Shown here in pieces: positions 12,743 to 20,419 of a stretch of DNA of 64,000 nucleotides. The notes beneath the pieces were generated by a model. It had not been told where the DNA came from, ran no database searches, and saw nothing but the letters and a program-made list of their open reading frames with translations. Position 1 is the stretch's first letter; every line of letters begins with the position of its first letter. The position numbers and the translations under genes were made by a program. The stretch covers positions 1-64,000 of the forward strand of contig NZ_JAPWGY010000011.1 of the NCBI RefSeq assembly GCF_027214005.1. Direction: 5' to 3'. This DNA is from Kiloniella laminariae. Its GTDB lineage: Bacteria; Pseudomonadota; Alphaproteobacteria; Kiloniellales; Kiloniellaceae.

Positions 12743-14209
12743 CTAGTAAGGGCAGTCCACGTCTCCCATTTCCACATAAACCGATTTGAGTTGGGTAAAG
12801 TGATCCACCGCGACGGTACCGTTCTCGCGCCCGATGCCTGATTGTTTGTAGCCGCCAAAGGGCATTTCAATCGGGGTAATGTTGTAGTTGTTGATCCAGC
12901 AGGTGCCTGCTTCGAGATTGGCGATGACGCGATGTGCCCGGGTGATGTCCTGGGTAAAGACCCCGGCGGCAAGACCAAACTGGGTGTCATTTGCCGCGGC
13001 GACCACTTCATCTTCGTCGCTGAAGGTGATGACCGACATGACGGCGCCAAAGATTTCTTCACGGGCAATGCGCATGTCTGCTGTCACATTGGTGAAAATC
13101 GCCGGTTGAAGGAAGTTGCCTTTTTCAAAGCCCTTGACCGTGACCTGTTTTCCGCCATAGGCAAGGTTTGCACCTTCCTTCTTGCCGATTTCAATATAGC
13201 CGAGAACCTTTTCCATGTGATCGCGATGGATCAGAGAGCCGACCTGGGTGTCGGGGTGCATGGGGTCGCCGATAATCATTTTCTCGGTGCGGGCAATCAG
13301 CTTCTCGATAAACTTGTCCTTGATGTCCTTGTGGACATAGACGCGGGTGCCGTTGGAGCAGATTTCGCCCTGGGTATAGAAGTTTGCCAGCATGGCGGCT
13401 GAAACCGCGTTATCGAGCTTGGCGTCCTCAAAGACGATCAGCGGAGATTTTCCGCCCAGTTCAAGGGTGACATGTTTGAGGGTCTTGGCCGCGGATTCCA
13501 TTACCCGTTTGCCTGTCGGCACAGAACCGGTCAGGGAAATTTTCTCGATGCCTTCGTGTTCTGCCAGCATCTGCCCGACCGGACCTAGGCCGGAAACCAC
13601 GTTGAACACCCCGTCAGGCAATCCGGCTTCCGTATAGATTTCTGCAAGTTTCAAGGCGGTCAGCGGGGTAACTTCCGAAGCCTTGTAGACCATGGCATTG
13701 CCACAGGCGAGGGCAGGGGCGGACTTCCAGCAGGCAATCTGGATCGGGTAGTTCCAGGCACCAATTGCCCCACAAACACCCAAAGGTTCTTTGCGGGTGA
13801 AGGCAAAATTGCCGTTGGCAAGCTGGATGTGCTCGCCGTTCAGCGAAGCCGCAAGCCCGGCAAAATACTCGATGCATTCCGCACCGGATTCAACATCGAC
13901 ACAGTTGGCTTCCTGCAAAGGCTTGCCCGTGTCGGTGACTTCCAGGGCAGCCAGTTCATCGTTGCGTTCACGCAGCAGGGCCACGGCACGCAACAGGATG
14001 CGGCTGCGCTCTGTGCCACTCATCTTTGACCAAATTTTGAAGCCTGCTTTGGCAGCGGCAACGGCTTTGTCGACATCTGCTGAAGAGGCGATCTGTACAT
14101 CGCATATTACTTCACCGGTTGCCGGGTTGATGGTTTCAAAGGTCTGTCCAGAGGTGGCATCCACGTACCCGCCATTGATATAGAGTTTTTGGGTGGGGAG
14201 CTTACTCAT
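12743..14209 (-). CDS. betB: Betaine aldehyde dehydrogenase
   Basis: 488 residues of the aldehyde dehydrogenase superfamily. The catalytic glutamate lies in LELGGKSP and the nucleophile is C284 in [10 protein letters not shown], the sequence typical of BetB; the C-terminal [14 protein letters not shown] block agrees. It oxidises betaine aldehyde to glycine betaine with NAD(P)+ in the cytoplasm. It lies 82 bases downstream of betI on the same strand, so betI-betB is probably one transcript controlled by the palindrome at 15094-15141. No choline dehydrogenase (betA) or choline sulfatase gene follows, unlike many bet operons. Confidence 0.95.
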
Positions 14210-14291: not shown

Positions 14292-14924
14292 CTATTCTGT
14301 AAAGAGCCTGTCTGTACTGGTTCGCGTCTTGCCGGTTGTGTCCTGGAAGACAAGGATCTGGCTGTTGATATAGCTTTCCATAATAGAGATCGCCTCCTTC
14401 GGTGTCACGCCTCCGGCTGTCAGGGCGCAGCGGATCCATAGGCCTTCAACCATTGCAGCGAGACCGGTTGCCGTGCTGCGAACCATCTTGGCTGGCAACA
14501 GCGGTTTGAGCGCGTGCTGGAAGTTACTGTGCATCCGGCGCTCGTTGATCCGGTGCAGACGGGCCAGTTCAGGGGATGTCGGAACCAGCGCCCAGAAGGC
14601 AAGCCAGACATCGACGACACCGGGTTTGAACTGATCCTGGGCAAAGTTGGAATAGACCACGGCGAGAAGACGTTCAATCGGGGTCTTGGCTTTGGCAAGC
14701 CGGATAGAGGTTTCTTCACCAAGCTGGCGCATCAGGTGTTGGAGTGTCGCTGTCAACAAGCCGGATTTGTCGTCAAAATAATGGGCAACGATACCAGAGG
14801 ACAGGCCTGCGCGTTTGCTGATTTTCGAGATACTGGCATTGGTGAATCCCTCTTCGTGGATCAGGGCAATGGTTGCCTCGATCAACTGGGTTTTCCTGAT
14901 CTCTTCCATCCCGACTTTCGGCAA
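14292..14924 (-). CDS. betI: TetR-family choline-responsive repressor BetI
   Basis: 210 residues. The TetR helix-turn-helix reads RRKTQLIEATIALIHEEGF-like at residues 8-28, then ASISKISKRAGLSSGIVAHYF; the C-terminal TetR_C domain has the FWALVPTSPELARLHRINERR block specific to BetI. BetI represses bet and choline transport genes and is released by choline. Its gene is divergent from choX, with the palindromic operator in the 392-base gap. It is followed by betB. Confidence 0.93.
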   Translation of the reverse strand: MPKVGMEEIRKTQLIEATIALIHEEGFTNASISKISKRAGLSSGIVAHYFDDKSGLLTATLQHLMRQLGEETSIRLAKAKTPIERLLAVVYSNFAQDQFKPGVVDVWLAFWALVPTSPELARLHRINERRMHSNFQHALKPLLPAKMVRSTATGLAAMVEGLWIRCALTAGGVTPKEAISIMESYINSQILVFQDTTGKTRTSTDRLFTE

Positions 14925-15093
14925 GGCCTGCGACTCCTCTGTTCTTGTGCAGTGTTCCCTTCGGGGCTTCTGTCCTTAGGGGTGTGCTTGGTTTCTGGAG
15001 GGGCTGTTACCCTTGATACCCAGAGGTTGCCTGCCGAATAATCGTCTTGGGTGATCCTGGCATTGTGCAACGTTTTTTCTTGTTTGTTCCCTC

Positions 15094-15141
15094 ATCAATA
15101 ATTTATTTTTATTGAACGTTCAATCAAAATAAATTATTGAT
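15094..15141. promoter_or_regulatory. 48-bp near-perfect palindrome with BetI operator core
   Basis: The centre, ATTGAACGTTCAAT, resembles the known BetI operator (TTGGACGTTCAAT in E. coli). Extending outward from the dyad between 15117 and 15118, each arm is 24 bases and 23 of 24 positions pair; the single exception is 15110/15125. Flanks are AT-rich (ATCAATAATTTATTTT on the left arm). It lies between divergent betI and choX and could hold both promoters. BetI binding is inferred from the core sequence and position. The length is beyond one TetR dimer footprint. Confidence 0.8.
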
Positions 15142-15316
15142 AGAGATGTCATGGTAATTTTTTATGCTTCCTATTGCATAATTTTATACCGTGCCAAAGG
15201 GAGCGTATTCGGGCAATCTGTCCTGTGAAAAAACAATAAGAAGCTCGCAGGGAGTAGCCGTTAAATATAATATAGCCCTCTGGATTGCTCTGGAGGGAAA
15301 AATGGAGGCAAGTGGA

Positions 15317-16279
15317 ATGAAACTCAAGCATATGATTTCGGCCAGCACACTGGCAATCTCAACGGCAATCGCGGTAGCAGGCTTTTCAGCAACTGCACAG
15401 GCTGCTGATCCGGCGGAATGCCAGGCAATCACTTTCTCGGATGTTGGCTGGACAGATATCACTGCAACCACCGCTACGGCATCTGTTGTTCTGGAAGGTC
15501 TTGGTTACAAGCCTGAAACACAGATTCTTTCTGTGCCGGTTACCTATGCAGGTCTGAAAAACGGTGATGTTGATGTTTTCCTTGGCAACTGGATGCCAAC
15601 GATGGAAGCAGATATCGCACCCTACCGTGAAGAAGGTTCTGTAGAAGACCTCGGTGCCAACCTTGAAGGCGCGAAATACACTCTTGCTGTGCCAACATAT
15701 CTGGCAGACAAGGGCCTGAAAGATTTTGCCGACATCGCCAAGTTCAAGGATGAACTTGATGGCAAGATCTATGGTATCGAGCCCGGCAACGACGGTAACC
15801 GTTTGATTCAGGGGATGATCGATGCTGACACCTTTGGCCTGAAAGGCTTTGAAGTTGTTGAATCTTCCGAAGCAGGCATGCTGTCCCAGGTATCCCGCTC
15901 TACTCGCCGGGATAAAGGTGTTGTCTTCCTCGGTTGGGCACCACATCCAATGAACTCGAACTTCGAGCTGACCTACCTGACGGGTGGTGATGACGTGTTC
16001 GGTCCTAACTTTGGTGGAGCAAACGTTCATACCAACGTGCGCAAGGGCTATACAGAAGCCTGTCCAAACGTCGGCAAACTTTTGAATAACCTCAAGTTCT
16101 CCCTCGCTATGGAAAACGAGATCATGGGCGCAATTCTGGACGATGGCAAAGACGGCCCCGTTGCAGCTACCGATTGGCTTAAAGCCAATCCGGGTGCTCT
16201 GGATGCCTGGCTGGCTGGCGTGACCACTTTTGACGGTGGCGACGGACTTGCTGCTGTAAAAGGCCATCTCGGACTGTAA
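15317..16279 (+). CDS. choX: Choline-binding periplasmic protein ChoX
   Basis: 320 residues from the ATG at 15317, with GGAGG 8 bases upstream. A signal peptide ends in SATAQA. It is an OpuAC-type binding protein close to ChoX: SDVGWTDITATTATA, LGNWMPT, KYTLAVPTYL and the GWAPHPMN segment supply the aromatic residues (three tryptophans and a tyrosine) that cage the trimethylammonium group, together with the aspartate in WTD. It captures choline for ChoW/ChoV. The in-frame start at 15191 would add 42 residues before the signal peptide and is rejected. Confidence 0.93.
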   Translation: MKLKHMISASTLAISTAIAVAGFSATAQAADPAECQAITFSDVGWTDITATTATASVVLEGLGYKPETQILSVPVTYAGLKNGDVDVFLGNWMPTMEADIAPYREEGSVEDLGANLEGAKYTLAVPTYLADKGLKDFADIAKFKDELDGKIYGIEPGNDGNRLIQGMIDADTFGLKGFEVVESSEAGMLSQVSRSTRRDKGVVFLGWAPHPMNSNFELTYLTGGDDVFGPNFGGANVHTNVRKGYTEACPNVGKLLNNLKFSLAMENEIMGAILDDGKDGPVAATDWLKANPGALDAWLAGVTTFDGGDGLAAVKGHLGL

Positions 16280-16335: not shown

Positions 16336-16500
16336 GCATGTTTTCATACCAAGAATAAATCCAGCGACAGTAAGAAGCCGTTCAAGACAAAGAAACGGTT
16401 CGGTTGCCAAAACAAAAAACAGGACTTGAGTCCGGGACGTCAGCAGGGAATATAACCGGGATACGTCTTCGGGATCGCCTTGAAAAAAAAGGGTTTCACT

Positions 16501-17361
16501 ATGTCCAGCATCGAAGAGTGGTTAATTGAGAATAAAGTTCCTGTGGGGAAGTGGGGAGAGAGTTTTTTCGATTTTCTCATCGATAACTTTTCAGGATTTT
16601 TTGATTTGTTTTCGGATGTCATGTCCTTTTTGATCAAAGGATCTGTTGATATTCTGCTCTATTTACCACCCATCGTTCTTGTGGCTCTGATCGCGGCGCT
16701 GGCACATTTTCTGCAGCGATCCTGGAAATTGAGTCTCTTTGTTTTTCTGTCACTTCTGTTCATTATTAATCAGGGGTATTGGCAAGAGGCGATTCAGTCA
16801 CTAGTTCTGGTAATCTACTCGACGATGGTTTGTATGGTTGTCGGGGTGCCCTTAGGCATCGCTGCTGCTCATCGACCCTGGCTGTTTTCTATCCTTCGCC
16901 CTATTCTGGATCTGATGCAGACCATTCCAACATTTGTTTATCTTATCCCGGCAATGATCCTGCTTGGGCTCGGGATGGTTCCGGGAATGATCGCTACTGT
17001 GATTTTTGCTGTAGCCGCGCCGATCCGACTGACCCATTTGGGAGTATCTTCGGTACCGACACCTTTGATCGAAGCTGCTGAGTCTTTTGGCGCAACAAAA
17101 AGTCAGTTGCTGTGGAAGGTTGAAATCCCCTTTGCCTTGCCGACGATTATCGCAGGGGTCACCCAGTGTATCATGCTGTCTCTTTCAATGGTGGTAATTG
17201 CTGCCATGGTTGGCGCGCCAGGACTGGGTGTGCCGGTGCTGCGGGCACTATCTCAGGTCAAGCCTGATATGGGGATCGAAGCAGGTCTGGCCATTGTGAT
17301 TATTGCGATCCTGCTGGATCGACTGTGCAAGCAGCGTAACGCTCCGGTCGACGGCGCATAA
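16501..17361 (+). CDS. choW: Choline ABC transporter permease ChoW
   Basis: 286 residues with about six to seven membrane helices. The permease EAA loop appears as LIEAAESFGATKSQLLWKVE near residues 190-210, and PTFVYLIPAMILLGLG is typical of ProW/ChoW. The chosen ATG at 16501 has AAGGG 8 bases upstream; a TTG at 16480 in frame is less likely. It forms the channel with ChoV. Its start lies 221 bases after choX, a gap holding the strong hairpin, and choV begins 11 bases after its stop. Confidence 0.92.
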   Translation: MSSIEEWLIENKVPVGKWGESFFDFLIDNFSGFFDLFSDVMSFLIKGSVDILLYLPPIVLVALIAALAHFLQRSWKLSLFVFLSLLFIINQGYWQEAIQSLVLVIYSTMVCMVVGVPLGIAAAHRPWLFSILRPILDLMQTIPTFVYLIPAMILLGLGMVPGMIATVIFAVAAPIRLTHLGVSSVPTPLIEAAESFGATKSQLLWKVEIPFALPTIIAGVTQCIMLSLSMVVIAAMVGAPGLGVPVLRALSQVKPDMGIEAGLAIVIIAILLDRLCKQRNAPVDGA

Positions 17362-17372
17362 GGGGACAGAAC

Positions 17373-18578
17373 ATGACATCTAGTGCAGTAGAATTCAAAA
17401 ATGTCGATATCATCTTTGGTGATCGGCAAAAAGAAGCAGTCCCGATGGTCGATGCCGGGAAAACACGTGAAGAAATCCTTGATGCCACAGGCTGTGTTCT
17501 GGGGGTTGCCAATGGGTCGATCACCATTGAAGAAGGCGAGATCTGTGTCCTGATGGGGCTGTCCGGATCGGGCAAATCCACCCTGTTACGCGCGGTGAAC
17601 GGCCTGAACAAGGTCACCCGTGGTGAAGTACTGGTGCGGGATGGAAACGACATGGTTGATGTGGCGTCCTGCGATGCCAAGACCTTGCGCCACATGCGCA
17701 CAGAACGGGTTTCCATGGTCTTTCAGCAGTTCGCGCTTTTACCCTGGCGGACAGTTGCCGAGAATGTCGGTCTCGGTTTGGAGCTCAAGGGCATGCCCAA
17801 GGCCGAGCGTGAAGCCATTGTCGAGGAAAAGCTGAAGCTGGTCAGTCTCGACAAGTGGAAAGACAAATACGCCCACGAGCTGTCCGGGGGGATGCAACAG
17901 CGTGTGGGGCTTGCCCGTGCCTTTGCCACAGATGCTGATATTCTGTTGATGGATGAGCCTTTTTCCGCGCTTGATCCTTTGATCCGGGATCATTTGCAGG
18001 ACGAATTGCTTGAGCTGCAGCGCAATCTGAAAAAGACGATTATCTTTGTCAGTCATGATCTGGATGAGGCCCTGAAAATCGGAACGCACATCGCGATTAT
18101 GGAGGGGGGGCGTATTGTCCAGTACGGTGAACCGGAAGAAATCGTGCTTAATCCGGCGAATGAGTATGTGGCCGAATTTGTCGCCCATATGAACCCGCTG
18201 AATGTCCTGCGCTGTGCCTCGCTGATGACCGAGGTCAATGACATGCGCCGGGATGGCAAGCAGCTGATTCTCGATAAATACGACGCTTTCAAGGTCACAG
18301 TTGATGCGCAGGGGGCTTTGGTAAAGGCGACCTTCGAAGACAAACTCGATCTGACACTCTTTCCTTATGGGGACGAAAGTGAACTTTCGGATATCGGTGA
18401 TTGTTCACTGGCGGTTGCTTCGCCGGACATCACGATGAAGCGGGCGATTGAACTGCGTCAGGCTACTGGAAATCCTGTGCTGTTGGCAGTTGACGGGCGT
18501 CTTGTCGGGGTTGTCGGTGATGAGGAGATTTATCAGGGTATCCTGCGTCAAAGTTCCATTGCCGATGCTGCTGAATAG
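17373..18578 (+). CDS. choV: Choline ABC transporter ATPase ChoV
   Basis: 401 residues. An ABC domain (Walker A GLSGSGKST, Q-loop FQQFALLPWRTV, signature LSGGMQQRVGLARA, Walker B ILLMDEPFSALDP, switch FVSHDLDEA) is followed by a C-terminal region of about 120 residues in the position of the CBS pair of the ProV/OpuAA class. In that class CBS domains sense ionic strength. The gene order choX-choW-choV matches Sinorhizobium. The stop is 3-9 bases before the HAD gene, showing co-transcription. Confidence 0.93.
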   Translation: MTSSAVEFKNVDIIFGDRQKEAVPMVDAGKTREEILDATGCVLGVANGSITIEEGEICVLMGLSGSGKSTLLRAVNGLNKVTRGEVLVRDGNDMVDVASCDAKTLRHMRTERVSMVFQQFALLPWRTVAENVGLGLELKGMPKAEREAIVEEKLKLVSLDKWKDKYAHELSGGMQQRVGLARAFATDADILLMDEPFSALDPLIRDHLQDELLELQRNLKKTIIFVSHDLDEALKIGTHIAIMEGGRIVQYGEPEEIVLNPANEYVAEFVAHMNPLNVLRCASLMTEVNDMRRDGKQLILDKYDAFKVTVDAQGALVKATFEDKLDLTLFPYGDESELSDIGDCSLAVASPDITMKRAIELRQATGNPVLLAVDGRLVGVVGDEEIYQGILRQSSIADAAE

Positions 18579-20376: not shown

Positions 20377-20419
20377 AAAAAAGCCAGAAGGGGTGTGATT
20401 GCACACCCCTTCTGGCTTT
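20377..20419 (-). terminator. Strong terminator of the betaine-homocysteine methyltransferase gene
   Basis: AAAGCCAGAAGGGGTGTG pairs perfectly over 18 bp with CACACCCCTTCTGGCTTT, with a 4-base loop (ATTG). On the minus strand it ends in six Ts, and it starts about 28 bases after the methyltransferase stop. Confidence 0.92.

Follow-up and report, generated by a model that had tools for sequence, protein, structure and literature searches.

The intergenic region between the divergent betI-betB and choXWV operons of this Kiloniella genome holds a BetI box of 14 bases at the centre of a palindrome of 48 bp, and the question that the locus raises is why the symmetry runs so far beyond the box. We examined the locus in a window of 64 kb, by which we mean the whole stretch of DNA that was analysed. 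A repeat search revealed two 24-base arms (15094-15117 and 15118-15141) that are 96% complementary, with a spacer of 0 and a single mismatch 8 bases off centre. On a scoring devised for this analysis, the palindrome was the top inverted repeat in the window (score 21), and the unrelated runner-up at 20380-20419 scored 18. In dinucleotide-preserving shuffles of the intergenic region (n = 5000), the best zero-gap palindrome scored 11 or less; the same limit was observed for 5000 shuffles of the local 180 bases, while 40 shuffles of the whole window gave 13 or less. The near-perfect palindrome with 24-base arms that a preliminary description had reported is confirmed by the repeat search and the shuffles; it is real and well beyond chance. 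The runner-up repeat has perfect arms of 18 bases and a 4-base loop, and sits across the upstream end of a reading frame on the minus strand.

The naming of betI, betB, and choX in the preliminary description also held, with small corrections to two starts (betI TTG 14924 and choX ATG 15317). BetI, betaine-aldehyde dehydrogenase, ChoX, ChoW, and ChoV of the window locus all passed their NCBIfam cut-offs, BetI with 226.9 bits (TIGR03384, cut-off 201.3). The start of betI is most likely the TTG at 14924, because its LPKVGM aligns with the MPKVGM or MPKLGM of other BetI proteins. This TTG start (14909-14924) lies five codons ahead of the first ATG, and LPKVGM is kept in the eight genomes aligned. 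The window BetI is 97% identical to the BetI of K. laminariae DSM 19542, with 89% identity of the betI DNA, and the 3 kb around the palindrome is 87.5% identical to the DSM 19542 record, the best of seven compared. In the choX leader (15200-15310), the islands GGGAG, GGCAA, and CCTG/GCAGG are kept in eight genomes and the surrounding spacer diverges. When the leader was analysed for structure, a compensated change was found in 2 of 29 predicted pairs and the covariation term was unfavourable (+1.99); we draw no claim from it. An Rfam scan of 14850-15400 gave seven matches, all far under their gathering scores, as expected of a hairpin-like stretch.

Features of the palindrome locus, in window coordinates
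Feature	Position	Strand	Basis
betB, betaine-aldehyde dehydrogenase	12743..14209	-	family match
betI, choline-responsive TetR-family repressor	14292..14924	-	family match; likely TTG start
48-bp palindrome	15094..15141	none	repeat search, shuffles, alignment
Left outer arm, betI side	15094..15110	none	invariant in 8 Kiloniella genomes except position 8 from centre
Candidate -10 TAAATT toward betI	15100..15105	-	inferred
BetI box ATTGAACGTTCAAT	15111..15124	none	sole perfect copy in genome; also at betI in sister genera
Candidate -35 TTGAAC toward choX, within BetI box	15112..15117	+	inferred from sister operators
Candidate -35 TTGATT toward betI	15122..15127	-	inferred
Right outer arm, choX side	15125..15141	none	invariant in 8 Kiloniella genomes
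Candidate -10 TAAATT toward choX	15130..15135	+	weak match, inferred
Match to IHF consensus WATCAANNNNTTR	15130..15142	-	motif match
Alternative weak candidate -10 TATTGA toward choX	15135-15140	+	weak match
choX, choline-binding protein of ABC transporter	15317..16279	+	family match; ATG at 15317
choW, choline ABC transporter permease	16480..17361	+	family match
choV, choline ABC transporter ATPase	17373..18578	+	family match

The core of the palindrome is a perfect ATTGAACGTTCAAT box, 193 bases from the likely start of a betI whose product scores above its family cut-off. The box beside E. coli betI is ATTGAACGTCCAAT, and the region protected by E. coli BetI is reported to span 41 bases. Of 61 genomes of the order, at least 28 carry a perfect box, the eight Kiloniella among them; the count is a lower bound, as the search pattern fixed the letter class at each end and one genome is known to have been missed. 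Across the class, few genomes have the perfect 14-base box (8 of 386 sampled). Both betI and choX were present in 26 of the 28 box loci viewed, and in all 26 both genes point away from the box. The preliminary description likened the core to a BetI operator at the divergent promoter; a BetI box separating betI-betB from choXWV is borne out by the perfect sequence and by the same arrangement in sister genera, and the centre of the palindrome is very probably a BetI operator.

We then compared the arms within the genus. The Kiloniella set of choX operators comprised the window and seven named records (L005-L011), about three deep lineages in all; seven further Kiloniella genomes were identical to L005-L011 over 3042 bases and were not counted twice. 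From -26 to +26, 49 of 52 positions were invariant in the eight genomes, compared with 8 of 68 in the flanks (ungapped, 27-60 bases either side of the centre). Six of the seven non-window loci have perfect arms, 25-28 bases long, and one uncompensated substitution is common to the window and L005, where the arms are 24. Since the arms reach 28 bases in L006 and 24-26 in the other Kiloniella loci, the outer edge of the palindrome seems to decay while the inner 48 bases are held. In a ninth Kiloniella genome, G010 (77% complete), no match to the palindrome was found, and the only BetI found was the one adjacent to betA. From the conservation observed, we infer that both arms have been kept by selection since their origin.

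Conservation of this kind bears on whether the symmetry is a neutral leftover, a by-product of template switching whose outer arms are idle. The betA operator of K. spongiae, described below, suggests that such by-products occur, and the outer palindrome edge does vary by species (arms of 24-28). Across the deep Kiloniella lineages, however, the palindrome was 94-100% identical while the flanks were 28-51% identical, and betI itself was only 73-77% identical over the same splits, so we regard idle arms as highly improbable. A search of nine Kiloniella genomes for arm-like sites elsewhere, allowing up to three mismatches, gave 16 hits in six of the nine, each with three mismatches, and the reversed-arm control gave 15 hits in all nine. 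The arm hits were no better than the control, and nothing therefore points to a regulon built on such sites.

Outside the genus, the arms are short. The non-Kiloniella set held 21 operators, 20 from the order and one (L072) from another order; betI was present in the fetched locus for 20 of them, the exception being L041, with choX only. L072 is one of four box loci from outside the order, and the other three (L076, L077, and L078) lacked a betI match and do not figure in the promoter and arm counts. Allowing one mismatch, the arms of the 21 operators measured 7-16 bases, and long arms are therefore a genus feature among the operators sampled. In 30 further upstream regions, namely those of E. 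coli and of the 29 top-scoring TIGR03384 hits from the class (many of them under the cut-off, and two from genomes already counted), no arm exceeded 13 bases at one mismatch or less. Loose palindromes were found there in E. coli (35 with 7 mismatches, away from its box) and at a weak BetI relative (24 with 4 mismatches). Conservation of the full arms in relatives, which the preliminary description had offered as a check for a composite operator, was thus observed in the eight Kiloniella genomes and stopped at the genus. Because the full arms are conserved in Kiloniella, more than the 14-base box is at stake.

One way to account for long arms is an extended BetI site, with two or more dimers, or both BetI paralogues, side by side over 48 bases; two stacked dimers had been suggested in the preliminary description. 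The genome does encode two BetI proteins with similar DNA-binding domains, the motif ATTGA recurs in the arms, and BetI2 of Ruegeria is described as binding two overlapping boxes (PMC12442346). On inspection, however, the arms hold at most a half-site (ATTGA) and no second complete BetI box, and the long arms are missing from the 21 operators outside the genus. The same report describes protection of 29 bases by Ruegeria BetI1 over a 14-base palindrome (PMC12442346). We consider an extended site improbable, and judging from the sequence comparisons a longer BetI site appears less likely than a mirror-image divergent promoter that arose by inverted copying.

Another possible reason for keeping the arms is a structure in the DNA, a cruciform or a hairpin, that governs both promoters; a cruciform had likewise been proposed. 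The full hairpin folds at -14.2 kcal/mol in the window and at -23.2 kcal/mol in L006, in each case below all 200 shuffles, but any palindrome folds in this way. A cruciform would tolerate compensated changes, and in the eight genomes there were none; the bases themselves are frozen, and the one change shared by the window and L005 is uncompensated. With the structure also absent from sister operators, we give a cruciform very little weight.

A point that the preliminary description did not consider is that the arms appear to occupy the place of -10-like boxes in sister operators. Of the 42 sides of the 21 sister operators, 21 have a TANNNT that begins 17-19 bases from the dyad; shuffles that permuted positions 13-45 had a mean of 1.9, and none of 5000 reached as high. 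When one locus per genus was counted, the motif was present on 8 of 14 sides (shuffle mean 0.6, 0 of 20000 as high). Taking TTGAAC of the box as a -35 element gives spacers of 16-18 bases to TANNNT in the sister operators, and this placement makes it probable that a pair of divergent promoters have their -35 elements under the BetI box. Closer to the dyad, the 11 family loci compared, from two sister genera, all have TAAAAT starting at position 13 on their betI side; 16 bases ahead of it, one genus has TTGATT and the other TTAATT. Kiloniella has TAAATT at position 13 on both sides with TTGATT ahead, which toward choX in the window is TTTATT.

The promoters in the Kiloniella palindrome, if present, nevertheless look weak, and this is the main weakness of reading the arms as twin promoters. 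TANNNT at 17-19 is absent from the Kiloniella choX-operator arms, and a strict sigma-70 scan found no promoter inside the palindrome; its one promoter-like site, at 15013-15042, lies outside, and shuffles averaged 0.6 sites. Also counting against twin promoters, the betA operators of the window genome and K. laminariae have no TANNNT at 12-29, and the left side of the betA operator is conserved to -18 though no leftward promoter is known there. On balance, we put the chance that twin promoters are the reason for the conservation of the arms at about even.

If the arms are not promoter halves, a sequence-specific protein may bind them. The operator would then be a composite one, with BetI in the centre and IHF or another such protein on each arm, and the symmetry would reflect two equal bends flanking the repressor. 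The consensus for IHF is WATCAANNNNTTR, and the sequence from arm position 25 to position 13, TATCAATAATTTA, matches it exactly. There are seven matches to the consensus on both strands of the 64 kb, one of them within the palindrome; by eye on the alignment, both arms match in L006-L011, and the genome encodes three members of the IHF/HU family (PF00216). Against this, the match was found post hoc among several motifs, and in the window it is full on the right arm only. The four free consensus positions are frozen as well, and there is no match in the 21 sister operators (within 60 bases) or in nine betA operators. IHF in the arms therefore seems unlikely to us, even as the strongest of the rival accounts.

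Evidence on how long arms arise came from a second BetI operator. Two proteins of the window genome score above the BetI cut-off, and the second is encoded directly upstream of betA (G000:C54:259797-262053; L085, L092). A BetI box was found upstream of betI2-betA in nine Kiloniella genomes, as ATTGAACGTCCAAT in five and with 1-2 changes in four. Around it lies a block of 37 bases (-18 to +19) in which, with K. spongiae left out, the commonest base occurs in at least six of eight genomes. The two halves of this operator match at 11-16 of 26 positions in eight of the nine genomes. In the ninth, K. spongiae (locus L080; genome G014, assigned from a stretch of 3042 bases at the choX locus with 100% identity), the betA operator is a palindrome with 26-base arms, 25 of 26 positions matching, whose sole mismatch falls inside the box and whose arm sequence is unlike that of the choX palindrome. 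The right arm of K. spongiae matches the right arms of the others at 16-23 of 26 positions. Its left arm matches their left arms at 11-16 positions and their right arms at 15-22, with one tie (L085, 16 in both comparisons). The simplest account is that the left half in K. spongiae was overwritten by a reversed copy of the right half.

In quasipalindrome template switching, as reported, one arm of an imperfect inverted repeat serves as the template for the other, and a single event makes the repeat perfect (PMC7202029, PMC8794818). The K. spongiae betA operator bears its signature, one arm being the reverse complement of the other with the old arm visible in outgroups. It suggests that a single inverted copy is enough to make an operator symmetric, a possibility that the preliminary description had not considered. 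Because the K. spongiae palindrome differs in sequence from the choX palindrome, long arms arose at least twice, and the best explanation for them is a template switch at the BetI dyad. The choX operators are symmetric in all eight Kiloniella genomes. Because none of these genomes retains an asymmetric state, the copying event at the choX operator is argued by analogy; we think an inverted-copy origin of its arms fairly likely. When arm positions 8-19 were set against 11 family operators, 10-11 of 12 positions matched on the betI side, compared with 7-9 of 12 on the choX side in ten of them and 11 of 12 in one; for nine operators of the order outside the family, either side matched at 3-9 of 12. 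The better fit to the betI side of the family operators makes that side the likelier donor arm.

We propose, as a tentative reading that falls a little short of an even chance, that the palindrome is a BetI operator inside two divergent, mutually exclusive promoters with near-identical halves, made by inverted copying and then frozen. The central box would carry the -35 region of both promoters, and one BetI dimer would therefore shut betI-betB and choXWV together; by inference from characterised BetI proteins, choline would free both operons by releasing BetI. Each promoter would have its -10 region in the arm through which it fires outward, as the sister operators suggest. With an upstream half common to both promoters, RNA polymerase could bind just one of them at any given moment. 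As to origin, the K. spongiae betA operator points to a replication event in the genus ancestor, a template switch at the BetI dyad by which one arm, more likely the betI-side arm in the case of the choX operator, was copied backwards over the other. In Ruegeria, choline is reported to lower the expression of betI2 while raising that of betTA (PMC12442346), and release therefore need not be equal in both directions.

We suggest more tentatively still that BetI operators seed inverted template switching, which would create a mirror-symmetric bidirectional promoter in one mutation, at two paralogous operators of Kiloniella, one of them fixed genus-wide and frozen. If this is true, a natural replication error has rewritten a promoter in one step and given two divergent operons the same promoter, and the states before and after such an event are visible at the second operator in sister species. 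With the BetI dyad as the seed of the switch, transporter and enzyme genes would gain common control. Long perfect palindromes over repressor boxes would then not need to mean longer protein sites, and the locus would offer a defined system for RNA polymerase competition at a symmetric promoter. Among the titles and abstract openings of the open-access literature we found no account of such a case, which is not proof that none is published.

Parts of this arrangement are familiar from known systems. The E. coli betT-betIBA and Ruegeria pomeroyi BetI1 operators likewise have a TetR-family BetI and a box of about 14 bases, which lies between choline genes or upstream of them. Their palindromes are short, whereas the Kiloniella arms are 24-28 bases, near-perfect, and frozen genus-wide. 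As in our reading of Kiloniella, the box is described as lying over predicted -35 elements; for Ruegeria BetI1 the 29-base footprint and 14-base palindrome cover a predicted -35, with choline as the effector (PMC12442346). Regulation by two BetI proteins is reported mainly in Rhodobacterales and in some Hyphomicrobiales, and in Ruegeria, as in Kiloniella, one BetI goes with choline transport and one with other bet genes (PMC12442346). Unlike the case described there, betB and choXWV share one locus in Kiloniella while betA is at the other. The bidirectional promoters of E. coli described by Warman and colleagues are similar in that symmetric DNA engages polymerase in two exclusive orientations, and acrR/acrA is such a promoter with a TetR-family repressor, like the Kiloniella case (PMC12825309). 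Those promoters are described as only pseudo-symmetric and as sharing a -10, whereas the Kiloniella promoters would have in common the -35 region, inside the repressor box. The template-switch cases reported so far in the sources cited concern an E. coli reporter gene (PMC7202029) and RNA stems (PMC8794818), while in Kiloniella the putative event would have rewritten an operator together with its promoter in nature.
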